In this document: piece by piece, positions 1-12,463 of the stretch
Numbering within the stretch: the stretch's first letter is position 1
Layout: every line of letters begins with the position of its first letter
Source of the DNA: a bacterium
GTDB lineage: Bacteria > UBP18 > UBA7526
Direction: 5' to 3'
NCBI GenBank assembly: GCA_030619985.1
Contig: JAUXAI010000030.1
Span: 1-14,262, forward strand
DNA: 14,262 bases
Program-made: the position numbers and the translations under genes
Notes under the pieces: model-generated
The model's database searches: none
What the model was told of the DNA's origin: nothing
The model's input: only the letters and a program-made list of their open reading frames with translations

Positions 1-817
1 AGTGATTCGTAGGAATAAGAGAGGAAGGCTCAACATCATAAATGAGGCCAATATCGATGACTATCTCTATGGCGTCTTGCCCCATGAAATTTCTCCTGCC
101 TGGCCTCTGGAGGCCCTGAAGGCTCAGGCAATCGCCTCCCGCACATTGGCCCTCTATCGCAAGAGAAGGGCTCGGGCGAAGGATTACGACCTGGATGCCA
201 CCATCTTCACTCAGGTCTATGGGGGAGTGGAAGATGAAGACCAGAGAACGAATCAGGCAGTTAATGAAACGAGAGGAGAGGTCTTGACCCACAAAGGAAA
301 GATTATTAATAGTGTTTTTCATGCTACCTGTGGTGGCCATACAGAGGATGCCGCAAATGTCTGGCCGGGATCAGAAGAGCCCTATCTTAAGAACATCTCT
401 TGCACTTTCTGTAAGGATTCTCCTTACTATCAGTGGGAGAAGAGGATTAAGGAAAGGGACCTGAGAAATATATTGAAAGAGAAGGGTCTCGATCTAAGCA
501 GGATTAAAGAGATAGAAACAACAGAAGCAAGCCCTTCAGGCCGAACAATTAGAATAGCTATTAAACAACGCAGGAAAACCCAGTTCCTGAGGGCAAATAA
601 CTTCCGTCTTTTTCTGGGTCCAGACCTCCTGAGAAGCACCCTTTTTACCGTAAGCAAGGAAAAAAATGAATTTATCTTTAAAGGTCATGGCTGGGGGCAT
701 GGGGTGGGGATGTGTCAGTGGGGAGCAAAAGGAATGGCAGAGAAGGGCAAGCACTATAAAGAGATTTTGAAACACTATTACACTGGAGTGGAAATAGAAA
801 AATATGAATCCCGTTAG
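1..817 (+). CDS. SpoIID/LytB domain protein, 5' truncated
   Basis: The reading frame is open from the window edge to TAG at 815-817, so the true start is probably upstream; SpoIID-type proteins are usually longer than the 271 residues seen. The family comprises lytic transglycosylases that cleave denuded peptidoglycan glycan strands, or LytB-type amidase enhancers. Visible hallmarks are the YLYGVLPHEISPAWPLEAL block near residues 21-39 with the conserved acidic E29, an AxSRTxA helix, the ATCGGHTED segment followed by ISCTFC (a possible zinc-binding His/Cys set, by family analogy), and the C-terminal GHGWGHGVGMCQWGA signature. The last codons and the stop lie inside the left arm of a palindromic element (see 804-916). 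Without that element the frame would run a few codons into pgsA, ending in residues ESTE. In a non-sporulating lineage the likely role is cell-wall remodelling. Family assignment is secure; the biological role is inferred. Confidence 0.92.
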   Translation, partial: VIRRNKRGRLNIINEANIDDYLYGVLPHEISPAWPLEALKAQAIASRTLALYRKRRARAKDYDLDATIFTQVYGGVEDEDQRTNQAVNETRGEVLTHKGKIINSVFHATCGGHTEDAANVWPGSEEPYLKNISCTFCKDSPYYQWEKRIKERDLRNILKEKGLDLSRIKEIETTEASPSGRTIRIAIKQRRKTQFLRANNFRLFLGPDLLRSTLFTVSKEKNEFIFKGHGWGHGVGMCQWGAKGMAEKGKHYKEILKHYYTGVEIEKYESR

Positions 818-914
818 ACAGATTTGTTCTGTAACCATTGATTGCGGAGTTAACAACAGATTTTGGTTTTATATATATGTTTTGAGAAGAAAAGGTGGAA
901 GTCTAACGGGATGA
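804..914 (+). CDS. Possible 36-codon leader ORF inside the palindromic element before pgsA
   Basis: ATG at 804 opens a 36-codon frame (MNPVRQ... to ...GGSLTG) that stops at TGA 912-914. That stop overlaps the pgsA start as ATGA, which is the usual arrangement for translational coupling. The frame overlaps the end of the spoIID-like gene in another phase and has no clear Shine-Dalgarno of its own. It consists almost entirely of the inverted-repeat element at 804-916. The equivalent element at 4065-4173 has the same layout and the same opening residues (Met-Asn-Pro). The peptide probably has no function of its own; its value may be to carry ribosomes across the element to pgsA. This is inference. 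Confidence 0.25.
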   Translation: MNPVRQICSVTIDCGVNNRFWFYIYVLRRKGGSLTG

Positions 915-916
915 AT
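804..916 (+). repeat. Palindromic insertion-like element, copy 1 (ATGAAT-flanked)
   Basis: The direct repeat ATGAAT at 804-809 and 911-916 encloses a perfect 10-base inverted repeat, CCCGTTAGAC at 810-819 and GTCTAACGGG at 901-910, with an 81-base interior. The right ATG is the pgsA start codon, and the left arm contains the stop codon of the spoIID-like gene. Copies 2 and 3 (4065-4173, 6875-6933) share the ATGAAYCCCG left end and CGGGRTGAA right end but have different interiors. A direct repeat around terminal inverted repeats is the usual footprint of a small non-autonomous insertion. No transposase is present, so mobility is inferred. Confidence 0.7.
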
Positions 917-1447
917 CTACCGAATAAAATAACCATCTTGCGATTGATATCTATTCCTTTTTTCCTTTATTGTTTGAAAGTTGGTCAGGCCAAAGTAGCT
1001 TTCTTTATATTCCTGGTGGCTATTCTGAGCGATGCCTTAGACGGCTATCTGGCCAGAACCAGAGGGCAGAAGACGAAACTGGGTAGTATTTTGGATCCCG
1101 CAGCGGATAAAGCGTTAGTCCTTTCCTCCTTTATTATGCTAACTTTTTTCTATCACAGGATTCCTTTTTGGTTAACCGGGGTTGTGATTGGCAGGGATAT
1201 AATTCTTCTTGTCGGTTTCGGCATCCTCCGTCTTTCCTTGGGGTCCGTAGAAATCATACCTTCTGCCTGGGGAAAGATGACCACTCTTCTGCAATTCAGC
1301 GTGGTAGTGATAGCCTTAATCTCAGAGGCCTTTCGGCCCTACTCTCAGATCATTCTTGGTCTGGCTTATCCTACAGTAGCCTTTACTGCTATCTCCGGGG
1401 CCCACTACCTCGTTCGCGGTAGTCTCCGCCTATTAAGGAAGAAGTAG
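911..1447 (+). CDS. pgsA: CDP-diacylglycerol--glycerol-3-phosphate 3-phosphatidyltransferase
   Basis: This 178-residue integral membrane enzyme transfers a phosphatidyl group from CDP-diacylglycerol to sn-glycerol-3-phosphate, giving phosphatidylglycerol phosphate, the committed step to phosphatidylglycerol and cardiolipin. The CDP-alcohol phosphotransferase signature DGx2ARx8Gx3Dx3D is complete: D44, G45, A48, R49, G58, D62 and D66, preceded by D41. The N-terminus MNLPNKITILRLISIPFF is typical of PgsA, so ATG 911 is preferred over a TTG at 863. Several hydrophobic segments follow, as expected. The stop codon directly abuts the plsY start at 1448. The start codon is the right flank of a palindromic element, which places the AAGGTGG purine run (about 892-898) further than usual from the ATG. 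Translation may therefore depend on coupling to the leader frame 804-914. The family is certain; the closely related phosphatidylserine synthase is less likely given the N-terminal sequence. Confidence 0.93.
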   Translation: MNLPNKITILRLISIPFFLYCLKVGQAKVAFFIFLVAILSDALDGYLARTRGQKTKLGSILDPAADKALVLSSFIMLTFFYHRIPFWLTGVVIGRDIILLVGFGILRLSLGSVEIIPSAWGKMTTLLQFSVVVIALISEAFRPYSQIILGLAYPTVAFTAISGAHYLVRGSLRLLRKK

Positions 1448-2065
1448 ATGCTTTTCTTGGCCATAATATTGAGTTATCTCTTAGGTTCTATTCCTACGAG
1501 TTACATTATGGGAAGGCTCTGGAAGGGGATCGATCTGAGAGAGCATGGCTCGGGAAATGTGGGGGCCACCAATACCTTTCGCGTTCTGGGCCCGGCCCCA
1601 GGGATAATCGTCCTCCTTGCCGATGTCTTAAAAGGATTGGTCGCCATCCTTTTTATAAGTCGCTTAGCAATTAGTGGGCCACTCTCTTACGAATGGATAA
1701 AAGTCCTTTGTGGAATGGCTGCTATCTGCGGCCATAATTGGACAATATTCTTGAAATTTAAAGGGGGAAGAGGAGTGGCCACTAGCATCGGAGTCTTCTT
1801 CGGCCTAGTTTGGCAGGCAATAGGGATAGCTTTTCTTATTGGAATCATTATTATTTTTTTCACCCGCTATGTTTCTTTAGGATCGATTTTAGGAGCCCTT
1901 GCCTTTCCCTTCTTAGTAGCCTTTTTGCCCTTTGAGTGGCCCTTACCTTATTTCTGGCTCGCCTTCTTGGCAGCTCTTTTAGTTGTTATCAAACATATTC
2001 CAAATATCAAAAGGCTTATTAAGGGTAAAGAGAATAGAATTTCCTTTAGGAGAAAAAGAAAATGA
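1448..2065 (+). CDS. plsY: Acyl-phosphate:glycerol-3-phosphate acyltransferase
   Basis: PlsY (205 residues, usual size) is a multi-pass inner-membrane protein that transfers an acyl group from acyl-phosphate to the sn-1 position of glycerol-3-phosphate, the first acylation step of phospholipid synthesis in most bacteria. The conserved loops are all visible: GSIPTSYIMGRLWKGIDLRE and HGSGNVGATNTFRVLG near residues 13-47, DVLKG, CGHNW(T)IFLKFKGGRGVAT in the middle, and a hydrophobic C-terminal half ending in the basic KHIPNIKRLIKGKENR. It starts immediately after the pgsA stop with no gap, so the two are almost certainly cotranscribed. Together with gpsA downstream it forms a module around glycerol-3-phosphate: GpsA makes it, PlsY and PgsA consume it. 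Nothing is unusual about the protein. Confidence 0.95.
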   Translation: MLFLAIILSYLLGSIPTSYIMGRLWKGIDLREHGSGNVGATNTFRVLGPAPGIIVLLADVLKGLVAILFISRLAISGPLSYEWIKVLCGMAAICGHNWTIFLKFKGGRGVATSIGVFFGLVWQAIGIAFLIGIIIIFFTRYVSLGSILGALAFPFLVAFLPFEWPLPYFWLAFLAALLVVIKHIPNIKRLIKGKENRISFRRKRK

Positions 2066-2094
2066 GTTTGTTTTGCGTTTTTCAATTTAATTTT

Positions 2095-2117
2095 GCCTGT
2101 CCGGTAGCCAGACGGGC
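2095..2117 (+). repeat. Imperfect hairpin upstream of gpsA
   Basis: In the 67-base gap between plsY and gpsA, bases 2095-2104 can pair with 2108-2117 around a 3-base loop, with one mismatch (2102/2110) and one G-U pair. There is no T-run after it, so it is unlikely to be a terminator. It ends 15 bases before the gpsA start and differs in sequence from the other palindromes in the window. Confidence 0.45.
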
Positions 2118-2132
2118 GTTTCGGCGGTTGCA

Positions 2133-3131
2133 GTGAAAAAGATTGCAGTTCTTGGGGCGGGAAGCTGGGGAACTACCTTAGCCATACTATTGGCCAAGAA
2201 GGGCCATGAAGTCAGCCTCTGGGAGTATCTTAAGGAACAGGCAGAGAGGCTCAGTAGGGAGAGGGAGAATCGCCAGTTCCTTCCTGGAGTTCCTATTCCC
2301 AGAGAGATCTTCATCTCACCAAACTTGGAAGAGACAGTCAAAGAGAAGGAGTTTATATTAATCGTCGTTCCCTCCCAGGTCTTGAGAGAAGTGGTGGAGA
2401 AATTAGTGAAAGTAAAGATTTCACTCAAGACCATTCTCATCAGTGCCACAAAGGGTCTTGAGGTAGGAACAAACTTGAGGATGTCCCAGATAATCAAATC
2501 CTACTTTTCAAAGAATGAGATAGTCGTCGTTTCCGGACCTTCTCATGCAGAGGAGGTCTCAAGGGAAATCCCGACCACCATCGTGGCCTCTGCTTCCAGC
2601 GCAAAACTAGCCCAGGAGATACAGGAGATATTCACCACTCCCTACTTCAGGGTCTATACCAACCCAGATACCATTGGAGTAGAACTGGGAGGAGCCTTGA
2701 AGAATATCATCGCCATCGCCAGTGGAATATGTGACGGTCTGGGATTAGGGGACAATAGTAAGGCGGCTTTGATGACTCGGGGAATAGTAGAAATTGCCCG
2801 GCTGGGAGTAGCCATGGGAGCCAAGCAGGAGACCTTTGCTGGACTCTCCGGGATGGGAGATCTCATCACCACCTGTATCAGCAAATATAGTAGAAACCGG
2901 GGTCTGGGAGAAAGAATTGCTAAAGGAAAGAAGTTGGAAGAGGCCCAGAGAGAGATCGGCATGGTTACTGAGGGGGTGCCTACCACAAAAAGTGCTTATG
3001 AATTAGCCAAGAAGTATAAAGTGGAAATACCCATTACTGAGGAGCTCTATAATATTCTCTTTAAAGGAAAAGATCCCAGGGACGCAGAGTTTGAACTCAT
3101 GACCAGAAAGACAAAGAGGGAAGACCGGTGA
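2133..3131 (+). CDS. gpsA: NAD(P)+-dependent glycerol-3-phosphate dehydrogenase
   Basis: GpsA reduces dihydroxyacetone phosphate to sn-glycerol-3-phosphate with NAD(P)H in the cytoplasm, supplying the backbone for PlsY and PgsA encoded just upstream. The 332-residue length is standard. The N-terminal Rossmann motif GAGSWGTTLA (residues 8-17) begins right after MKKIAVL, which supports the GTG start at 2133 despite a poor Shine-Dalgarno. Other landmarks are VVPSQVLREV (about 79-88), ISATKGLE with K107, SGPSHAEEV (about 134-142), GGALKNIIAIASG with the catalytic-type K190, GDNSKAALMTRG, and GLSGMGDLITTC in the C-terminal domain. Its TGA stop overlaps the GTG start of the HU-type gene (GTGA, 3128-3131), so the two are translationally coupled. 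No anomaly is seen. Confidence 0.96.
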   Translation: MKKIAVLGAGSWGTTLAILLAKKGHEVSLWEYLKEQAERLSRERENRQFLPGVPIPREIFISPNLEETVKEKEFILIVVPSQVLREVVEKLVKVKISLKTILISATKGLEVGTNLRMSQIIKSYFSKNEIVVVSGPSHAEEVSREIPTTIVASASSAKLAQEIQEIFTTPYFRVYTNPDTIGVELGGALKNIIAIASGICDGLGLGDNSKAALMTRGIVEIARLGVAMGAKQETFAGLSGMGDLITTCISKYSRNRGLGERIAKGKKLEEAQREIGMVTEGVPTTKSAYELAKKYKVEIPITEELYNILFKGKDPRDAEFELMTRKTKREDR

Positions 3132-3397
3132 TTAAGAAGGATCTAGTTAATAAGATAGCATCCCTTGGCCTCTCTAAGAAAAAGGCAAAGGAGGCCATGG
3201 AGACCATAATTGAGGGAATAGGTGAGAGCCTGGCCAGGGGAGAGAAGGTCCAGATTCAGGGGTTGGGCAGTTTTGACATTAGGGTTACCAAGGAAAGAAG
3301 GGGGCGCAACCCCAAAACTGGGGAGCCCTTAAAGATTCCTTCTCGAAAGGTCCCTGTATTCCGTCCTGCTCCACCCTTGAAAGAGAGAGTAAAGTGA
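3128..3397 (+). CDS. HU/IHF-family DNA-binding protein
   Basis: This 89-residue basic protein belongs to the HU/IHF nucleoid family, which binds and bends DNA as dimers. The family pattern is complete: an N-terminal helical half (MIKKDLVNKIASLGLSKKKA), the GLGSFDIRVTKERRGRNPKTGE beta-arm segment at about 46-67 containing GRNP, and a C-terminal VPVFRPAPPLKERV tail matching the usual P-x-F-x-P-x-x-x-LK. It starts with GTG inside the gpsA stop and ends in a second GTGA overlap with the MerR-like gene (3394-3397). An HU/IHF gene next to a small MerR-type gene is a recurrent bacterial arrangement and recalls ihfA. HU and IHF subunits cannot be separated with confidence from sequence alone, so I give no symbol. 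Confidence 0.94.
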   Translation: MIKKDLVNKIASLGLSKKKAKEAMETIIEGIGESLARGEKVQIQGLGSFDIRVTKERRGRNPKTGEPLKIPSRKVPVFRPAPPLKERVK

Positions 3398-3711
3398 GAG
3401 TTCGTATTCCCAATAAACTCTTCTTCTCTATTACCGAGGTAAGTAAGATTACTAAGGTTCCCTCTCATGTCTTGAGATACTGGGAGAAGGAGTTCAAGCA
3501 ATTTTTAAAACCTACAAAGTCCGAGATGAAAAGGAGGAGATATCAGAAAAAGGATATAAAGACTATCCTCGGAATAAAGGAGTTGCTCTATAAGGAAAAA
3601 TATTCTATTGCCGGGGCAAAGAAGAGGCTGAAACAGGAAACGGTCTTGCCCGATCTGATAAAGGAATGCAAAAGAGAACTACGCAAAATCCTAAGAGTCT
3701 TAAGCAAGTAA
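3394..3711 (+). CDS. MerR-family helix-turn-helix regulator, short form
   Basis: The 105-residue protein has an N-terminal MerR-type winged helix: FSITEVSKITKVPSHVLRYWEKEF (about 11-34), where the RYWE motif is diagnostic, then a wing with RRRYQKKDI and a helix IKELLYKEKYSIAGAKKRLKQE. The C-terminal dimerisation/effector region of full-length MerR proteins is almost absent, and no cysteine cluster for metal sensing is visible, so this is the short type often encoded beside HU/IHF genes. It starts with GTG overlapping the upstream stop (GTGA) and is the last gene of this operon; an AT-rich repeat follows. Targets are unknown. DNA binding is inferred from the fold. Confidence 0.88.
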   Translation: MRVRIPNKLFFSITEVSKITKVPSHVLRYWEKEFKQFLKPTKSEMKRRRYQKKDIKTILGIKELLYKEKYSIAGAKKRLKQETVLPDLIKECKRELRKILRVLSK

Positions 3712-3878
3712 ATCACAAATTACAATATACAAATTACAGACAATATACAATTACCGAAATTACAATAACCGAAACAAAAATTCATAGCGGGTTTTTGTTT
3801 GGAATTTTGGTCATTTGGATTTGTGATTTGTTTGTGATTTGGAATTTGGGATTTTGAGTTTACGTCGAAGGCGTTTAT
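3712..3878 (+). repeat. AT-rich spacer of iterated words and their complements
   Basis: The 167 bases between the MerR-like gene and tRNA-Pro hold no credible gene. The left half iterates words like ACAAATTAC and AATATACAAATTACAG. After about 3785 the strand asymmetry flips and the right half iterates GATTTG, GGAATTTTGG and TGATTTGGAATTTGGG. The two halves can fold into a long imperfect hairpin. A 63-residue frame here merely translates the repeat. I see no clear promoter, though the tRNA promoter must lie in or near this stretch. Confidence 0.6.
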
Positions 3879-3956
3879 CGGGGCGTAGCGCAGTTGGTTT
3901 AGCGCACCTGAATGGGGTTCAGGAGGTCGCTGGTTCGAATCCAGTCGCCCCGACCA
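3879..3956 (+). tRNA. tRNA-Pro, anticodon GGG
   Basis: A full cloverleaf can be drawn. Acceptor stem CGGGGCG (3879-3885) pairs with CGCCCCG (3946-3952), followed by discriminator A and an encoded CCA (3954-3956). The D stem is GCGC/GCGC. The anticodon stem CCTGA/TCAGG encloses loop ATGGGGT with anticodon GGG, reading CCC and CCU. The T arm has the TTCGAAT loop. The C1-G72 pair with A73 is characteristic of bacterial tRNA-Pro. Confidence 0.97.
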
Positions 3957-3966
3957 GTAATCAAAT

Positions 3967-4042
3967 ACAAGGGTGGCACGGGTAGCAAGGGGAACAAGGG
4001 TTTTAAACCCCTGTTACCCCTGTAGCCCCTGTGACCCCTGAG
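3967..4042 (+). repeat. 9-base tandem repeats in head-to-head inverted arrays
   Basis: Four 9-base units close to ACAAGGGGT (3967-3975, 3976-3984, 3985-3993, 3994-4002) are followed by the short loop 4003-4006 and then four 9-base units of the complement, ACCCCTGTT-like (4007-4015, 4016-4024, 4025-4033, 4034-4042). The whole can fold into an imperfect hairpin with arms of about 36 bases, helped by G-U pairs in RNA. It lies immediately downstream of tRNA-Pro(GGG). Confidence 0.8.
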
Positions 4043-4054
4043 AATTTGTATCCC

Positions 4055-4060
4055 GGAGGG
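4055..4060 (+). promoter_or_regulatory. Strong Shine-Dalgarno separated from its gene
   Basis: GGAGGG at 4055-4060 lies 4 bases before ATG 4065, an ideal ribosome-binding site. That ATG belongs only to the 35-codon leader frame, while the real downstream gene starts at GTG 4169. Deleting 4065-4168 would put this site directly before the downstream gene's start. Confidence 0.7.
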
Positions 4061-4064
4061 AAAG

Positions 4065-4172
4065 ATGAACCCCGCACCTTCTATTGTATCTTTTGAAAAT
4101 AAAGGAACGAGAAGCTCTCCATTCGTCTTACTGAGTAGAATACAAAATCTTATTAAGGAAGGTGCGGGGTGA
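4065..4172 (+). CDS. Possible 35-codon leader ORF inside the palindromic element before the 97-residue gene
   Basis: ATG 4065 follows an excellent Shine-Dalgarno (GGAGGG, 4-base spacer) and opens 35 codons (MNPAPSIVSF... to ...LIKEGAG). They stop at TGA 4170-4172, overlapping the GTG start at 4169 as GTGA. The frame spans the palindromic element exactly. Its translation is plausible on signal quality, and it would couple translation to the downstream gene. The peptide has no recognisable domain. It shares the opening Met-Asn-Pro-Ala-Pro with the N-terminal extension at 6875, because both are encoded by the same element end. Confidence 0.35.
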   Translation: MNPAPSIVSFENKGTRSSPFVLLSRIQNLIKEGAG

Positions 4173-4173
4173 A
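4065..4173 (+). repeat. Palindromic insertion-like element, copy 2 (RTGAA-flanked)
   Basis: The flank ATGAA (4065-4069) recurs as GTGAA (4169-4173). Inside lie perfect 13-base inverted arms, ACCCCGCACCTTC at 4069-4081 and the complement at 4158-4170, around a 76-base interior. The arm sequence is the same as in copy 3 (6875-6933), while the interiors are unrelated by eye. The right end supplies the GTG start codon of the next gene and contains its only nearby purine-rich run, so the hairpin would bury that start in RNA. Confidence 0.75.
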
Positions 4174-4462
4174 GAAAGAGGATTATCAAAGGGGAAGGAA
4201 GATGATTAGAGAAAATATGGAGAGATTGGTAGATAGATATTTAGAGGAGATTATTCGCTATAAAGAAGAGCTGGCAGGGGTCGATCTCTCTAAGATAGAG
4301 AAGTCTAAGGAAGCAGCGGAAAAGACGGAGATGCGCAATGCCAAACTCCTGGCCCTCTTAGAAATCCAGGAGATTACTAATCAGATGATTAAGGAATTAA
4401 ATGCCCTTAAAATTAGTGAACCCCGCTCTCCGATTTCATCGGAGAACGAAGGTGAAGAATAA
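4169..4462 (+). CDS. Unknown 97-residue charged coiled-coil protein
   Basis: I do not recognise a family. The protein is highly charged and predicted helical: MKKEDYQRGRKMIRENMERLVDRYLEEIIRYKEELAG, then DLSKIEKSKEAAEKTEMRNAKLLALLEIQEITNQMIKELNALK, with heptad-like spacing of I, L and M that suggests a coiled coil. It has no signal peptide, membrane segment, cysteines or histidines. The acidic tail SEPRSPISSENEGEE is encoded by a small palindrome (4417-4456) that looks like an in-frame insertion of 12 codons. The GTG start is the right end of a palindromic element. The gene is followed 34 bases later by a strong terminator, so it forms a short unit with the preceding tRNA region. It is probably a real gene, because the helical periodicity and codon pattern look natural. 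Confidence 0.72.
   Translation: MKKEDYQRGRKMIRENMERLVDRYLEEIIRYKEELAGVDLSKIEKSKEAAEKTEMRNAKLLALLEIQEITNQMIKELNALKISEPRSPISSENEGEE
4417..4456 (+). repeat. Degenerate fourth copy of the TGAA-flanked palindrome, inside a coding region
   Basis: TGAA at 4417-4420 and 4453-4456 flank a palindrome that starts CCCCG like copies 2 and 3. TCTCCGAT (4427-4434) pairs with ATCGGAGA (4438-4445) around TTC, with further weak pairing outward. The distance between flanks is 36 bases, exactly 12 codons, so the reading frame is kept. It is less perfect than the other three copies. Confidence 0.45.
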
Positions 4463-4496
4463 AGAGTCAGGAAACAAGACTTCAATTACTATATTC

Positions 4497-4518
4497 GCCC
4501 ACAGAAGTGGGCTTTTTT
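4497..4518 (+). terminator. Rho-independent terminator after the 97-residue gene
   Basis: GCCCAC (4497-4502), loop AGAA, GTGGGC (4507-4512), then six T (4513-4518). This is a textbook intrinsic terminator 34 bases after the stop codon, separating the 97-residue gene from the symporter operon. Confidence 0.9.
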
Positions 4519-4520
4519 GA

Positions 4521-4672
4521 GGTATCGGAATTTGTTGAAATTCCGATACCGAGGATTAGGGGGTCTGGGGGAAAGAATCTGCTTTCCCCCAGGGGGTGAC
4601 AGGGAGGCAAAGCATGACTTTGCCGACCACCAAAGGGACAAAGCCCCTATGGAAGTATCCCCGGAGGGGATA
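4521..4672 (+). repeat. Train of four distinct perfect hairpins before the symporter gene
   Basis: Four different perfect inverted repeats follow the terminator in series: 4521-4533/4538-4550 (13-base stem, loop GTTG), 4565-4575/4582-4592 (11-base stem, loop AATCTG), 4606-4612/4618-4624 (7-base stem, loop CATGA) and 4656-4662/4666-4672 (7-base stem, loop GGA). They share no sequence and none is followed by a T-run. They fill most of the 173-base leader of the symporter gene, whose promoter I cannot identify. Confidence 0.75.
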
Positions 4673-4691
4673 TCTTGAGGGATAGGTCAGG

Positions 4692-5987
4692 ATGAACAAA
4701 GAGCTAAAACTACCCCTGCTATTGAAGACCATGTACGGAGCGGGATCCGGAGGGTTCGCCTTAGTAATCTTAGCCATAGGAACATGGACCGTCTACTACT
4801 ACGCTCCTCCTTCGGGGCGAGGGTTGATGACCTATGCCCCCATGGCCCTATTAGGGACCGCCATGATGATTGGGAGGGTTGTGGATGCCCTAACCGATCC
4901 CTTGATAGCTCAGTGGAGCGATAGGACCAGATCACGCTGGGGAAGGAGAATTCCCTTCATTCTATTTGGTAGCCTGCCCTTGGTCTTATCCTTTATCCTC
5001 GTTTGGCATCCACCAGTACCAGGAAGTTCTGTGGTCAATTTTGTCTATCTGGTTTTGATGTTGAGCCTCTTCTTTTTATTCTATACGGTGGTGATTGTTC
5101 CTTACGCTGCCCTCTTACCAGAATTAACTTCCTCTTCAAAGGAAAGGATCAGTCTGGCCACCTGGCAAGGATTTTTTAGAATATTGGGGCTTATCATTGG
5201 TTTTTTAGGCTCTTCCTTTCTCATTGAGAGATTAGGTTTTAAAGCCATGGCCACCATCTTAGGTATGGTGGTCTTAGTTAGCCTCTATTGCCCAGTACTT
5301 GCCGTTAGGGAGCGAAACGTACATCTCAGGAAATCAGAATTTGCTTTTCGCCAATCTATCATTCAGACCTTTAGAAATAAACCCTTCAGATATTACATCG
5401 GCGGTTTTATATTCTTTTGGTTCGCCTTCACTCTCTTGACCATGGGGATCCCCTATATCGTTACCGAGTTGATGGGACTTGGCAAAGGAGATGTGGGGTT
5501 AATTGTGACTCCTTCGTTAGTAGTAGTGATCCTATCTTTCCCCCTTATACAGAGGATTGCTTCCCAGAAGGGTAAGAAGTTTACTGTTATCCTTTCTTTA
5601 GTTTTGCTCTGCGCCGCCTTCTTTCTCATCCCTTCCATTGGCCATTGGCCATTCGGAATTTCCAAGGCTCTTCAAGGGCAGATACTCCTGGGCCTGGCCG
5701 GCATTCCCATAGCAACATTATTTGCTCTCCCTAACGCTATGATTGCTGACTTGGTAGATTATGATGAGAAAGTCACAGGTTCGAGAAGGGAAGCAATGTA
5801 CTTTGGTATGCAGGGTTTGATGCTTAAGTTCGCCATCGCACTATCGGCACTTTTCTTCGGTTTTTTACTTAGAACTTTTGGTTATAGCTCAGCCGAACCA
5901 CTGGGCATCCTTCTTTTAGGGCCCGTTGCTGGCGTCTTTGTATTGGTCGGGCTTTCAATCTTCTCAAAGTATCCTATTACTACATAA
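4692..5987 (+). CDS. GPH-family (MelB-like) sugar:cation symporter
   Basis: This 431-residue membrane protein of about 12 hydrophobic segments matches the glycoside-pentoside-hexuronide:cation symporter branch of the major facilitator superfamily. The diagnostic loop between helices 2 and 3 is present: VVDALTDPLIAQWSDRTRSRWGRR (about 57-80), where the first Asp region contributes to cation binding in MelB. The loop motif GSRREAMYFGMQGLMLKFA lies around 366-384, and a Gly/Pro-rich transmembrane pattern runs throughout. The substrate cannot be read from sequence; glycosides, pentoses or hexuronides are family options, and some members serve lipid or other roles. The ATG at 4692 has only a modest purine-rich site (GAGGG, 4677-4681, and AGG nearer). 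It is first in a likely operon, with the acyltransferase gene starting 9 bases after its stop. Confidence 0.9.
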   Translation: MNKELKLPLLLKTMYGAGSGGFALVILAIGTWTVYYYAPPSGRGLMTYAPMALLGTAMMIGRVVDALTDPLIAQWSDRTRSRWGRRIPFILFGSLPLVLSFILVWHPPVPGSSVVNFVYLVLMLSLFFLFYTVVIVPYAALLPELTSSSKERISLATWQGFFRILGLIIGFLGSSFLIERLGFKAMATILGMVVLVSLYCPVLAVRERNVHLRKSEFAFRQSIIQTFRNKPFRYYIGGFIFFWFAFTLLTMGIPYIVTELMGLGKGDVGLIVTPSLVVVILSFPLIQRIASQKGKKFTVILSLVLLCAAFFLIPSIGHWPFGISKALQGQILLGLAGIPIATLFALPNAMIADLVDYDEKVTGSRREAMYFGMQGLMLKFAIALSALFFGFLLRTFGYSSAEPLGILLLGPVAGVFVLVGLSIFSKYPITT

Positions 5988-5996
5988 GAGGACCTA

Positions 5997-6878
5997 ATGG
6001 GCTATCTTTTGGCTTTAGTGAGGTATTTTCTATACTACATGGGGAGGATTATATTCTGTCGCCTTCTTCCTAAAGAGTTAAGTTATAGAATTACCCGGCT
6101 CATGGCCGATGCCCACTACTTTCTGGCTCGTCCCACCAGGAGAGCATTAATCTCTAATCTAAGGGTAGTCTGGGGGAAGGAGAAGAATGAAAGAGAGATA
6201 AGAAGGATGGCCCACCGCACCTTCCGCAGATTCGCAGGCTACGCAGTAGACTTCTTTTACTCCCCCCAGATAAATAGGGATAATATTGATGATTGGGTTA
6301 TTATAAAGGGCCTTCATTATGTAGACCGGGCTCTTTCTCAAGGGAAAGGAGTAGTAACCTTAAGTGCTCATTTAGGGAATTGGGAGCTGGGGGGAATCAC
6401 CATGGCTTTGAAGGGATATAAAATGAACGTCCTTGCCTTGGGCCATGGGAAAAGGAGGGCCACAGATATCTTCAGAAAGCAGAGGGAGGCAAAGGGAGTA
6501 AAGGTCATCCCTTTAGGAGTGGCCACAAGGAGATGCTTCCAGGCACTCAAGGATAATGAACTTTTAGCCACGCTTGGGGATCGGGATGTGAAAGGAAAAG
6601 GAATGAGGGTAGAGTTCTTTGGGAAGGAAGCCATCGTTCCCAAGGGTCCTGCTACCTTTTCTTTGGAAACTGGGGCAATAATCGTTCCATCTTTTATATT
6701 CAAGAAGGGCGAAAAGTATGAACTATCTTTTGAAAGACCTATTCTACCTAAGCCCACAGGTAATAAAGAAAAAGACCTTCTTCACCTTACTAAGAAGTGT
6801 CTCAAGGTAATCGAAAAATATATCAAGGGACATCCTGAGGAATGGTTCCTCTTTCATCGAATGTGGAGAGAAGGATGA
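5997..6878 (+). CDS. LpxL/HtrB-type lysophospholipid/lipid A acyltransferase
   Basis: The 293-residue protein belongs to the HtrB/LpxL acyltransferase family, whose members add secondary acyl chains to lipid A or acylate other glycolipids at the inner membrane. The catalytic Hx4E motif is seen as SAHLGNWE with H125 and E130. Downstream landmarks are GDRDVKGKGMRVEFFG (about 198-213) and the PKGPATFSLETGAIIVPSF block. The N-terminus is hydrophobic, LLALVRYFLYYMGRIIFCRLLP, and probably membrane-anchoring. Shine-Dalgarno AAGAGG sits 5 bases before ATG 5997. The gene ends in a TGA that overlaps ATG 6875 of the glycosyltransferase as ATGA; that TGA is also the left end of a palindromic element. A diderm envelope is suggested, though related acyltransferases (e.g. 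PatA of mycobacteria) exist elsewhere, and no lpx genes are in view to fix the substrate. Confidence 0.9.
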   Translation: MGYLLALVRYFLYYMGRIIFCRLLPKELSYRITRLMADAHYFLARPTRRALISNLRVVWGKEKNEREIRRMAHRTFRRFAGYAVDFFYSPQINRDNIDDWVIIKGLHYVDRALSQGKGVVTLSAHLGNWELGGITMALKGYKMNVLALGHGKRRATDIFRKQREAKGVKVIPLGVATRRCFQALKDNELLATLGDRDVKGKGMRVEFFGKEAIVPKGPATFSLETGAIIVPSFIFKKGEKYELSFERPILPKPTGNKEKDLLHLTKKCLKVIEKYIKGHPEEWFLFHRMWREG

Positions 6879-6933
6879 ACCCCGCACCTTTAAGCAGAAA
6901 GAAAAAATTGAATAGCAAAAGGTGCGGGGTGAA
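6875..6933 (+). repeat. Palindromic insertion-like element, copy 3 (RTGAA-flanked, short)
   Basis: ATGAA at 6875-6879 and GTGAA at 6929-6933 enclose perfect 13-base arms, ACCCCGCACCTTT (6879-6891) and its complement (6918-6930), with a 26-base interior unrelated to that of copy 2. The left TGA is the stop codon of the acyltransferase gene. The right GTG is a possible start of the glycosyltransferase. The 54-base offset between flanks is 18 codons, so the frame stays open through the element. Confidence 0.75.
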
Positions 6934-7591
6934 GACCTGTGCTATCATCCCGGCCTATAATATTGAGAAGACCCTTCCCAAAGTCATTGAGGGTGTTCAG
7001 AAGTATGTTGGTAAAGTAATCGTTGTCGACGATGGATCTACCGATGCTACTTTTGCAAAAGCAAAGGAGGCCGAGGTAACGGTTCTAAAACATGAGAAGA
7101 ATGAGGGCAAGGGAAAGGCCCTGCGCACCGGCTTAGAGTACGCTTTAAAGAAAGGCTTTGAACAGATAATCTTGATGGATGGCGATGGCCAGCACGATCC
7201 TAATGAGATACCAAGATTTCTGAAGGCCGCCCAGTATCCTCAGGTAGATATCGTTGTCGGTTCACGAATGGAGAACGTGAAGGATATGCCCAGAGAGCGC
7301 TTGGTGGTTAACAGGATCGGTTCCTTCCTCACCTCTCTTCTGGCAAGACAAAGGATCCCAGATAGCCAGTCCGGATACCGTCTGGTAAAGAGCAGGGTAT
7401 TGAAAAAGATCACCCTCACCTCCCAGCGCTACGATGTAGAGTCTGAGATGCTCATTAAAGCAGGAAAGAGGGGATTCGGGATAAAGAGCATCCCCATAAA
7501 GACCATCTATCGCCAGGAGATAAGCCACTTTCGTAAGTTCTGGGATACTCTGCGGTTCATAAAATTAATCTTGAAAGGAGTCTGGTGGTAA
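6875..7591 (+). CDS. GT2 glycosyltransferase, polyprenyl/dolichyl-phosphate sugar transferase-like
   Basis: A GT-A fold family 2 glycosyltransferase resembling DPM1/DPG-synthase proteins, which load a sugar from a nucleotide donor onto a lipid phosphate. Seen in order are AIIPAYNIEKTLPKVI, the VVDDGSTD donor-binding motif, NEGKGKALRTGL, the catalytic-type MDGDGQHDP with its DxD, and QSGYRLV before the C-terminal helices. No transmembrane pair follows, so it is the soluble or peripheral form. Two starts compete. ATG 6875 overlaps the upstream stop and has GGAG nearby, giving 238 residues. GTG 6929 lies at the end of the palindromic element and gives 220 residues, beginning immediately before TCAIIPAYN as usual in the family. 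The 18-residue basic extension (MNPAPLSRKKK...) is element-encoded and not part of the normal fold. Coupling to the LpxL-like gene suggests synthesis of an acylated or lipid-linked glycan. Confidence 0.9.
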   Translation: MNPAPLSRKKKLNSKRCGVKTCAIIPAYNIEKTLPKVIEGVQKYVGKVIVVDDGSTDATFAKAKEAEVTVLKHEKNEGKGKALRTGLEYALKKGFEQIILMDGDGQHDPNEIPRFLKAAQYPQVDIVVGSRMENVKDMPRERLVVNRIGSFLTSLLARQRIPDSQSGYRLVKSRVLKKITLTSQRYDVESEMLIKAGKRGFGIKSIPIKTIYRQEISHFRKFWDTLRFIKLILKGVWW

Positions 7592-7690
7592 CAACAGATA
7601 GATAATACAACGGATAACGCAGATAGCGCGGATAGGTAATGACAAAGTATCAGCGTAATCCGCGAAATCTGTTGTAACATAATCCGTTGT
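7591..7690 (+). repeat. 100-base palindromic repeat, copy A
   Basis: This copy begins ACAACAGAT, ends ATCCGTTGT, and consists of 9-base-like words (CGGATAACG, AGATAGCGC) followed by complements (AATCCGCG, ATCTGTTGT). It starts at the last base of the glycosyltransferase stop codon. Copy B (8125-8224) differs at only about 5 of 100 positions with no gaps; copy C (9816-9915) has the same length and is roughly three-quarters identical. There is no T-run, so it is not a simple terminator. Confidence 0.88.
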
Positions 7691-7695
7691 AAGTA

Positions 7696-7730
7696 ACAAA
7701 AGATAGATAATACAACGGATAACACGGATA
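7696..7730 (+). repeat. Truncated left half of the 100-base repeat
   Basis: Bases 7696-7722 match the first 27 bases of copy A with a single difference, and the similarity fades by about 7730. The complementary right half is missing. It lies just before the nuclease-like gene (ATG 7743), so it could pair with the right half of copy A upstream or copy B downstream in an mRNA. Confidence 0.7.
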
Positions 7731-7742
7731 AAGATAAGGCTG

Positions 7743-8135
7743 ATGGAATTACTGCATAAAGAGTTAACCTATAAAATTAGGAAGTGTCTTTTTGAGGTTT
7801 ATAATACTCTTGGGCCTGGCTTCGATGAATCAGTTTATCTCAGGTCATTGATCATAGAATTCAAGCATCATGGTATAGCATATGAAACGGAAAAGCCAAT
7901 CAAAGTCCGTTACAAGAGTACCCTTGTAAAAAATTATAAACTTGATCTTGTAGTAGAAAATAAAATCATATTAGAAATTAAAGCGGTAACAAAATTAAAT
8001 CCAGCGTTCAAATCCCAAATCATATCTTATCTAAAGGCAGCCCAGTTAGACTTAGGACTTTTAGTAAACTTTGGTAAAGAAAGATTAGAAATTGAAAGAA
8101 TAATTCTTTCTAACAAAATTAAGTACAACAGATAG
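7743..8135 (+). CDS. GxxExxY protein, PD-(D/E)XK nuclease-like
   Basis: The 130-residue protein carries the defining G26-x-x-E29-x-x-Y32 motif (GFDESVY) after an N-terminal helix, ELTYKIRKCLFEVYNTLGPG. It then has a PD-(D/E)XK core: D68 in KLDLVV and E78-x-K80 in ILEIKAV, followed by Q92 in QIISYLKAA and LGLLVNFG. The GxxExxY family is classed with the PD-(D/E)XK nuclease superfamily; its biological role is not established to my knowledge, and genomes often hold several paralogs. All expected catalytic residues are present, so it may be active. The gene looks more AT-rich than its neighbours. It lies between near-identical 100-base repeats, and its last codons and stop are formed by copy B. 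The Shine-Dalgarno is weak (AAGG, 7736-7739, 3-base spacer). Together these suggest a laterally acquired or recombining cassette, which is inference. Confidence 0.9.
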   Translation: MELLHKELTYKIRKCLFEVYNTLGPGFDESVYLRSLIIEFKHHGIAYETEKPIKVRYKSTLVKNYKLDLVVENKIILEIKAVTKLNPAFKSQIISYLKAAQLDLGLLVNFGKERLEIERIILSNKIKYNR

Positions 8136-8224
8136 ATAATACATCGGATAACGCAGATAGCGCGGATAGGTAATGACAAAGTATCAGCGTAATCCGCGAA
8201 ATCCGCTGTAATACAATCCGTTGT
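8125..8224 (+). repeat. 100-base palindromic repeat, copy B
   Basis: This copy is about 95% identical to copy A by eye. It begins within the end of the nuclease-like gene and supplies the codons for its last residues and the stop at 8133-8135. A further unit, AACGAAATCCGTTGT, extends it to 8239. The left arm (CATCGGATAACGC) and right arm (AATCCGCG, ATCCGCTGT, ATCCGTTGT) are complementary. It separates the nuclease gene from the YjbQ-like gene at 8261. Confidence 0.88.
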
Positions 8225-8260
8225 AACGAAATCCGTTGTATACATAATCGAGGTGTACTG

Positions 8261-8767: not shown

Positions 8768-9826
8768 ATGACCTCTAAAGTTGGTCTCGTCTATTCAGAT
8801 GAATATCTAAAACATGATACGGGAGATCATCCAGAGAATAGCAAGCGCCTTGAAGCTATTCTAAATTATCTTAAAGAGAAAAATCTTCTAAAAAATTTAG
8901 TCTCTATTCTCCCCAAAAAAGCAAAAGAAAAGGAGATTGAATATATTCACAGCCCTTCTTACATCCAGGAGGTAGGAGAAATCTGTAGACGAGGGGGAGG
9001 ATTTTTAGATCCCGATACCCCGGTGTCCAAAGATTCCTTCGAAGTTGCTCTCTTAGCAGCGGGTGGAGTATTTAGTGCCATCGATAGAATAGTGGATGAT
9101 CTGGATAGCGCTTTTTGCCTCATTCGTCCTCCGGGCCATCATGCTCTAAAATCAAAGGGAATGGGCTTCTGCCTCTTCAATAATGTCAGCCTGGGGGCAA
9201 GGTATGCCCAGAAAAAGTATAATCTAAAGAAAGTTCTGATTATCGATTGGGACGTCCATCATGGAAATGGAACCCAAGAGGCTTTCTATCGCGACCCTTC
9301 CGTCTTATACTTCTCCCTTCATCGCTATCCCTACTATCCAGGAACAGGAGATATCGAGGAGATTGGAGAGGGAGAGGGGAAAGGATATACCGTCAATGTC
9401 CCTCTTCCTCCGGGATGTGGAAATAGTGATTATATCTATATCTTCAAGGAACTCCTTTCCCCCATCGCTAATGAATTCAAACCGGATATCACCCTCATCT
9501 CCGCAGGATTCGATGCCCACCAAGACGATCCCCTGGGAGGAATGAGTCTTGCTTCTCAAGGATACGGAGTCCTAACCTCTTTAGTGAAAGAGTTCTCTCA
9601 AGGAATAGTCTCTTGCTTGGAGGGAGGATATAATCTAAAGGCCTTAAGAGAATCTGTTTTCACCCATCTGGACTCTTTGGCCTCTCGTCCCGAGGGGACC
9701 CGAGGTCCCCGAGGGAGAGAATTCAACCTTTTCCCTAAGGGGGGAATGGACTACGAACTTCCTAGTAGAGGGGTTAAAGAGATAGTAGAAAAGGTAAAGG
9801 GAATCCATAGTAAGTACACCAGATAA
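8768..9826 (+). CDS. Histone deacetylase/AcuC superfamily amidohydrolase
   Basis: The 352-residue protein is a class II-like bacterial deacetylase of the arginase/HDAC fold; bacterial members act on acetylated proteins, polyamines or small molecules. The active site is complete: RPPGHHALKSKGMGFCLFNN with H124 and H125, DWDVHHGNGTQ with zinc ligands D162 and H164, SAGFDAHQDDPLGG with zinc ligand D249, and LEGGYNL carrying the catalytic-type Tyr. The N-terminal GDHPENSKRL is also typical. Start ATG 8768 has AGGA 7 bases upstream. After LASxx the usual C-terminus is interrupted by a Pro/Gly/Arg-rich segment, SRPEGTRGPRGREFNLFPKGG, encoded by a short palindromic repeat. The last codons (...KYTR) and the stop come from repeat copy C. 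The substrate is not predictable from sequence. Confidence 0.94.
   Translation: MTSKVGLVYSDEYLKHDTGDHPENSKRLEAILNYLKEKNLLKNLVSILPKKAKEKEIEYIHSPSYIQEVGEICRRGGGFLDPDTPVSKDSFEVALLAAGGVFSAIDRIVDDLDSAFCLIRPPGHHALKSKGMGFCLFNNVSLGARYAQKKYNLKKVLIIDWDVHHGNGTQEAFYRDPSVLYFSLHRYPYYPGTGDIEEIGEGEGKGYTVNVPLPPGCGNSDYIYIFKELLSPIANEFKPDITLISAGFDAHQDDPLGGMSLASQGYGVLTSLVKEFSQGIVSCLEGGYNLKALRESVFTHLDSLASRPEGTRGPRGREFNLFPKGGMDYELPSRGVKEIVEKVKGIHSKYTR
9683..9720 (+). repeat. Small palindrome inserted in the deacetylase coding region
   Basis: GGGGACC (9694-9700) pairs with GGTCCCC (9704-9710) around CGA, with outer pairing of TCTC and GAGA. CCCGAGG is iterated three times (9689, 9699, 9707). The frame stays open and yields an Arg/Gly/Pro-rich insert after the conserved deacetylase core. 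Confidence 0.6.
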
Positions 9827-9915
9827 ATAATACATCGGATAGCATGGATAAGTAGGGTAAGCGATAATAAAGTATCAGTGTAATCCGCGTAATCAGTTGT
9901 AACGAAATCCGTTGT
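9816..9915 (+). repeat. 100-base palindromic repeat, copy C
   Basis: The same 100-base length as copies A and B, without gaps, and roughly three-quarters identical by eye. It starts ACACCAGAT and ends ATCCGTTGT, with one more unit, AATATAATCTGTTGT, to 9930. Its left end forms the last codons and the stop (9824-9826) of the deacetylase gene. The left half is the most diverged part; the right half, AATCCGCG...GTTGT, is well kept. Confidence 0.82.
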
Positions 9916-9943
9916 AATATAATCTGTTGTAATGGAGTTTTGA

Positions 9944-12231: not shown

Positions 12232-12463
12232 TAAATGCCAAATTTGGGTTATGTCTTAAGGTTACAGCAACGAAGCCCGCCCTGTTATTAACAGGTTACG
12301 TTTAGGGGTGACGGTGACGAAGCCCGTATCGGTTACGTTTAATGGTTACGTGAAGAAAACAAGACGTTACCGTAACCAAAAGACGAAACGGGCCTCGTAA
12401 CCCTAGCCGTAACCAAATGTTTTTCACTGGCTTATCAACTTATTAACCGTTGAGGAAAAGATT
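12232..12463 (+). repeat. 232-base spacer of inverted GGTTACG words
   Basis: There is no credible gene here. GGTTACG occurs three times (12294, 12331, 12344), followed by its complement CGTAACC three times (12371, 12396, 12408). ACGAAGCCCG occurs twice (12269-12290 region and 12317-12326), with a near-complement around 12387-12398. A small hairpin, CCTGTT/AACAGG, sits at 12281-12286/12290-12295. The layout again is tandem words then complements. The last 50 bases before the next gene are AT-rich and may carry its promoter, but no clear -35/-10 pair is evident. Confidence 0.7.

Follow-up and report, generated by a model that had tools for sequence, protein, structure and literature searches.

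Palindromic elements at bacterial start codons and a candidate GIY-YIG parent

Rickettsia palindromic elements (RPEs) are short palindromic repeats that occur in essential genes and keep the reading frame open (PMC2229807, PMC10969869). Bacterial miniature inverted-repeat transposable elements (MITEs), among them Correia/NEMIS, RUP and ERIC, are likewise short, with terminal inverted repeats, target duplication and high copy number; some carry open reading frames (ORFs) or promoters. REP/RAYT and IS200/IS605 combine small palindromic repeats with a small nuclease gene; their enzyme is of the HUH kind, and the target is not duplicated. Free-standing GIY-YIG homing endonuclease genes, in turn, are selfish genes whose PF01541 nuclease spreads by cutting targets in conserved functional sites. 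Here, we describe a family of palindromic elements that resembles RPEs, MITEs and homing genes in the respects just named, and REP/RAYT and IS200/IS605 in its association of small palindromes with a small nuclease gene. It was met in a stretch of 14,262 nucleotides (contig JAUXAI010000030.1 of assembly GCA_030619985.1; "the window" below), part of the 1.25-Mb metagenome-assembled genome (MAG) G000, from the uncultured candidate lineage UBP18.

Three gene starts in the window, those of a pgsA-like gene, of a gene of 97 amino acids (aa) and of a GT2 glycosyltransferase gene, coincide with the right ends of such elements. A first-pass annotation had placed them there, and its coordinates, arms and flanks hold on re-reading, as do the start codon offsets of 107, 104 and 54; the arms are 12-13 bp long and perfectly complementary. 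The three copies probably belong to a selfish element that encodes a GIY-YIG nuclease, together with its miniature derivatives, with palindromic ends, inserted at start codons or in -35 boxes. The open-licence literature searched describes neither a GIY-YIG-coding palindromic element nor a start-codon-targeting MITE; the annotation had likewise named no described element with this start-codon preference.

Copies, duplications and placement

The element is, as had been proposed, multicopy. G000 contains 55 occurrences of the arm ACCCCGCACCTT, mostly as inverted pairs, and none of its reversed control; the pattern RTGAAYCCCG occurs 59 times, against 6 for its control. Chance therefore does not explain the copy number. 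The end sequence TGAACCCCGCACC is present in 6/6 genomes of the family and in 1/54 others. A second arm type, ACCCCGTTAGA, appears in 11/380 genomes outside the family, where several copies are TGAA-flanked at gene starts and one, from a MAG labelled Deltaproteobacteria, begins a homologue of GT2. A catalogue drawn from 177 stretches of six genomes (G000 and five family members, G001-G005) holds 103 elements with CCCCG...CGGGG arms of 8-18 bp, membership being decided by the arms alone. An Rfam search of the elements matched two tRNAs only, and no element. Some elements have inserted into others, as in L181, where one copy is nested in frame, and L455, where two stand in tandem at the start of ybaB.

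Exact 4-bp direct repeats flank 69 of the 103 elements (51 of TGAA type, 14 TTGA), and a further 10 match at 3 of 4 positions. Among the copies of G001-G005, located solely by the arm ACCCCGCACCTT with a search pattern that fixes only the last A of the flank, 35/57 have exact repeats.

That these repeats are the footprint of insertion, as the annotation had argued, is borne out by comparing filled with empty orthologous loci. The gene of copy 2 is empty in a relative (L072), reading tatcccggaggaaaatATGAAGAAAGAAGATTATC (..cccggaggaaaatATGAAGAAAGAAG) where the window has tatcccggagggaaagATGA, the element and GTGAAGAAAGAGGATTATC. The GT2 gene is empty in L073, with gtggagagaaggATGAGAG against gtggagagaaggATGA, the element and GTGAAGACC in the window. 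In an unrelated lineage, ybaB is empty in G231 (aaaggagagatggATGAATAAAATGG), and in G091 two elements, one degenerate and one fresh, stand in tandem at the same start. All three sites show insertion at ATGAA with duplication of TGAA. The annotation had taken RTGAA as the duplicated unit. The direct repeat is present, but copy 2 reads ATGAA on its left and GTGAA on its right, and the empty site in the relative reads ATGAAG; this rules out RTGAA and makes the base preceding the right TGA part of the element. The unit is TGAA, 4 bp. At pgsA, L073 retains the right arm alone, serving as the ribosome-binding region; a right-arm match at its 97-aa gene is ambiguous, since it lies within the coding end of the upstream ORF. 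For GuaA in G155 and G293, no ortholog was close enough for a comparison.

Empty sites contradict the view that these are immobile RNA hairpins, which arose at gene starts as a means of regulating translation. The hairpins do pair away the right-hand Shine-Dalgarno and start, and they fold more strongly than shuffles (-29.6 kcal/mol and z -2.45 for copy 1, z -2.57 for copy 2, z -5.56 for copy 3). Exact direct repeats, unrelated interiors and a spread over unrelated genes and lineages nevertheless make this account most improbable. Even fainter is the chance of programmed ribosomal bypassing, or of RNA splicing, over a hairpin between identical flanks. A stem between short direct repeats is, of course, what bypassing signals contain; here, however, the flanks are the stop and the start of separate genes, the offsets fall in all three frames, and each of the two starts has its own Shine-Dalgarno.

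The predicted enrichment at start codons is likewise found. Within the TGAA class, 47/57 elements (82%) coincide exactly with an ORF start (60 aa or more), against 25% of noncoding TGAA sites (nominal p 3e-19). The genes that follow include those for RadA, Fmt, EF-Ts, PtsI and GalT, with canonical N-termini kept, and the target as reconstructed is a purine-rich Shine-Dalgarno followed by ATGAAG. TTGA-flanked copies form a second class, sitting in promoter -35 boxes: a -10 box with at least 5/6 matches follows 10/16 right copies (63%) at 16-18 nucleotides, mostly 17, against a noncoding TTGA background of 4.4% (nominal p 2e-10). A GIY-YIG-coding copy of the TTGA class (L285) sits in a TTGACA-17-TATACT promoter.

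Such placement might of course reflect survival alone, with insertion at any TGAA or TTGA and with start codons and -35 boxes merely where insertions persist. The duplicated sequence by itself restores RTGA or TTGA; in 44/47 gene-start copies the right end matches a Shine-Dalgarno over 4 or more nucleotides; and copies in G155 and G293 use several targets (TGAA, TTGA, TGGA, TTTA). Yet the enrichment holds even over noncoding sites (82% against 25%; 63% against 4%), where counter-selection should be weakest, and we consider survival as the whole explanation a possible but somewhat doubtful one. The annotation's claim that ATGAA at starts is targeted is borne out as an enrichment, and other targets are in use; active targeting may account for part of the start-codon bias, and selective retention may contribute.

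A GIY-YIG gene between the same ends

The annotation had also proposed a small, non-autonomous element. Short copies of this kind exist, but full-length copies with the same ends occur in several lineages, and these hold a single gene, for a GIY-YIG nuclease of ~95 aa. In G091 (L267/L423) the ends are ATGAACCCAGCACCT...GAGGTGCTGGGTGAAA, the protein reads MNPAPQKYHYVYILNS...RGAG*, TGAA stands on both sides, and the TGA overlaps the GTG of the next gene. In G118 (L297/L411) the protein reads MNPALPNFYYVYILRN...GRAG*; the copy is again flanked by TGAA, and its TGA overlaps the next start. Other GIY-YIG copies have CCCCGCACCTTTT arms at a gene start (L190, in G002) or CCCCGCACCT arms (L298, L300 and L452, in G293 and G155), or belong to the TTGA class (L196/L285). 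Matches to PF01541 reach 1.4e-15 (L267) and 1e-13 (L297), and among solved chains the nearest are UPF0213 proteins. Of 50 distinct small GIY-YIG ORFs, 20 are enclosed by inverted repeats of 11 bp or more, against 14/571 control windows. In one short copy (L173) the leader amounts to a truncated GIY-YIG domain (36.9 bits; Pfam E 4e-4), and G091 holds several TGAA-flanked miniatures with related ends, most of them at gene starts.

Perfect terminal inverted repeats with a 4-bp duplication are the usual signature of DDE-type transposases. The elements could therefore be MITEs moved by an ordinary enzyme of that type encoded elsewhere, with the GIY-YIG gene a passenger or a homing gene that landed in the ends; such a transposase could be missed because G000 is 84% complete. 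We think this unlikely. No transposase, and specifically no DDE enzyme of the sort that defines an insertion sequence, lies between arms flanked by target-site duplications in the loci examined, which were covered to a span of 3 kb rather than by a whole-genome scan, and a parent transposase was rejected within those bounds. The only arm pair so flanked and longer than 700 bp (771 bp) consists of two adjacent copies enclosing a gene. In several unrelated genomes, by contrast, it is GIY-YIG that recurs as the only gene between such ends, in a frame that spans both arms.

Several points weigh against a selfish GIY-YIG element. Nuclease-driven movement and cleavage are proposals drawn from sequence. 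No inverted repeats of at least 11 bp flank 30/50 of the GIY-YIG ORFs; the direct repeats of L190 and L298 are approximate only; and the sole intact GIY-YIG gene seen between such arms in G000 is of the TTGA class. The interiors of short copies have no detectable GIY-YIG similarity except in L173 and, weakly, L169 and L181, and a GIY-YIG origin of all leader peptides was rejected for this reason. No open leader is present in 18/47 gene-start copies, nor in most miniatures of G091, which means that the leader helps or is inherited, but is not required. Gene starts are ORF-based (at least 60 aa) rather than annotated. The data are MAGs in which copies are related by descent and some loci are orthologous; the p-values above are optimistic because the statistics ignore this shared descent.

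The proposed mechanism begins with the full-length element, a single GIY-YIG gene of 270-380 bp with ends that are reverse complements of each other (ATGAACCCCGCACCT, MNPAP, at the 5' end; AGGTGCGGGGTGA, GAG*, at the 3' end). The nuclease would cut TGAA or TTGA with a 4-nucleotide stagger and handle the hairpin ends; it may itself make the target cut and drive the movement. Insertion at TGAA within a start (A/G)TGAA duplicates TGAA. The left copy, served by the host's own Shine-Dalgarno, then starts the nuclease ORF, or a leader ORF in shortened copies. The right arm brings a new Shine-Dalgarno and, for the host gene, a new RTG start; this overlaps the leader stop as RTGA, and translation could pass from leader to gene. 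In the TTGA class, duplication likewise keeps the -35 signal intact. Most copies are internally shortened derivatives of 50-150 bp, which would be moved in trans. The intermediate may plausibly be a hairpin or cruciform, since ANKLE1, also a GIY-YIG enzyme, cuts cruciform junctions (PMC10287932).

A broader proposal, on which we are evenly divided, is that these elements form a new class of bacterial mobile DNA whose only transposase is a small GIY-YIG nuclease. This enzyme would recognise both hairpin ends and, as safe targets, generic gene signals (starts, -35 boxes), and the class would be the parent of widespread palindromic repeats (those with MNPAP or MNPVR N-termini, perhaps also the TGTCATT type) in many phyla.

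GIY-YIG genes were also seen in other settings. In L272, L276, L280, L287 and L294 they are enclosed by inverted repeats of TGTCATTCCCGCGAAAG or TGTCATTGCGAGCG type, which resemble widespread intergenic repeats. One GIY-YIG ORF with 21-bp inverted repeats (L269, G100:C1:1560726-1560971) apparently interrupts a 23S rRNA gene in the manner of an intervening sequence, and others (L195, L198, L203; G000, G004) lie beside or inside tRNA-like gene pieces.

Leaders and the copies in the window

From the left start codon, 29/47 gene-start copies are open: 20 as leaders of the form MNPAP...GAG*, whose TGA overlaps the RTG of the host gene, and 9 as in-frame N-terminal fusions. Shuffled interiors are open in 4.6 cases on average and 11 at most; with one copy per interior cluster, 17/29 are open, against 2.5 in shuffles. 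Stops per codon are 0.026 in the leader frame and 0.107 and 0.075 in the other two. Translation of leader and gene may be coupled. In one case (L348) the element lengthens the C-terminus of the upstream gene. The leader or fusion, the Shine-Dalgarno in the right arm and the sister class in -35 boxes are additions to the first-pass annotation, whose reading is partly supported.

The window's three copies (Table 1) conform to what that annotation had said of their flanks. The right RTG starts the downstream gene in each, and the left flank provides a leader ATG (copies 1 and 2) or a stop plus an in-frame ATG (copy 3), which would extend the GT2 protein by 18 N-terminal codons. The right-hand starts of pgsA and GT2 are genuine: PF01066 aligns from residue 1 of the pgsA product (with TIGR00560 over 1-169, just under its cut-off), and the PF00535 match to the GT2 product begins at residue 5. 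A family search with the 97-aa protein gave no match; the gene is conserved in relatives (86-96% identity), its N-terminus being the same there. The ORF upstream of copy 3 we take, from reading its sequence rather than from a family search, to be acyltransferase-like.

Table 1. Elements, leaders and adjoining genes in the window
Feature	Position	Strand	Remarks
Copy 1, at pgsA	804..915	+	left ATG 804; TGAA 805-808; core 809-911; TGAA 912-915; right ATG 911
Copy 1 arms	809-819 / 901-911		TTAGAC-type
Copy 1 leader ORF	804-914	+	36 aa, MNPVRQICS...GGSLTG*; TGA overlaps ATG 911
pgsA-like CDP-alcohol phosphatidyltransferase	911..1447	+	starts at right end of copy 1
Copy 2	4065..4173	+	left ATG 4065; TGAA 4066-4069; core 4070-4169; TGAA 4170-4173; right GTG 4169
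Copy 2 arms			CACCTTC
Copy 2 leader ORF	4065-4172	+	35 aa, MNPAPSIVSFENKG...KEGAG*; TGA overlaps GTG 4169
97-aa gene	4169..4462	+	start supplied by copy 2
Acyltransferase-like ORF (presumed)	5997..6878	+	stop TGA 6876-6878 is left target copy of copy 3
Copy 3	6875..6933	+	left ATG 6875; TGAA 6876-6879; core 6880-6929; TGAA 6930-6933; right GTG 6929
Copy 3 arms			CACCTTT
GT2 glycosyltransferase	6929..7591	+	GTG start is right end of copy 3

Several start codons (those of GT2 and pgsA in relatives; L071, L072, L032) are immediately preceded by a different repeat, CGAACG(A/G)AGTGAGG, which provides a Shine-Dalgarno-like sequence. Elsewhere in the window (7588-8240), a gene of the GxxExxY family (PDDEXK_3 nuclease), at 7743-8135, is flanked by two imperfectly palindromic repeats of ~100 bp, a second pairing of nuclease and palindrome there; a third copy of that repeat lies at 9813-9931. 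Degenerate direct repeats of ~33 bp (GGTTACGTTTA...) occupy the intergenic stretch 12247-12363.

Comparison with described systems

Were the proposed mechanism true, part of the orphan palindromic repeats of bacteria would gain an autonomous parent and a testable enzyme. The element spares its host, the duplicated target rebuilding the signal (start codon or -35 box) that insertion broke. It also accounts for N-termini that are false or too long (MNPAP..., MNPVR...) among genes predicted in candidate phyla, and could point to a compact tool for start-codon insertion of DNA.

RPEs, as their descriptions set them apart, lie inside ORFs, with duplication listed as unknown and no parent given in those texts. 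The present elements enter at start codons or -35 boxes and duplicate 4 bp; they carry a Shine-Dalgarno, and their full-length form encodes GIY-YIG; 47/57 TGAA-class copies sit at start codons and only 9 are N-terminal fusions, rather than insertions in the body of an ORF. REP/RAYT and IS200/IS605 differ in that the elements described here have GIY-YIG and a 4-bp duplication, no search aimed at HUH genes having been made.

Homing endonuclease genes have one long cognate site and neither terminal repeats nor duplications. The present elements share their GIY-YIG domain (L267, L297), but have both repeats and duplications, many targets and miniatures. A homing enzyme, as Dunin-Horkawicz et al. 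(2006, PMC1564403) state, does not recognise the mobile DNA to which it belongs; they also ask whether other GIY-YIG members are molecular parasites.

MITEs are alike in form, in the terminal inverted repeats of all 103 elements and in target duplications seen both as flanking repeats (69/103) and against empty sites. MITEs are, however, held to be non-coding deletion derivatives of transposase-bearing insertion sequences, whereas here the candidate parent is a GIY-YIG gene found inside full-length copies, open leaders are frequent, and placement is at gene signals. If the nuclease is the mobility enzyme, this would be a new kind of element; otherwise, it would be a new variant of MITE.

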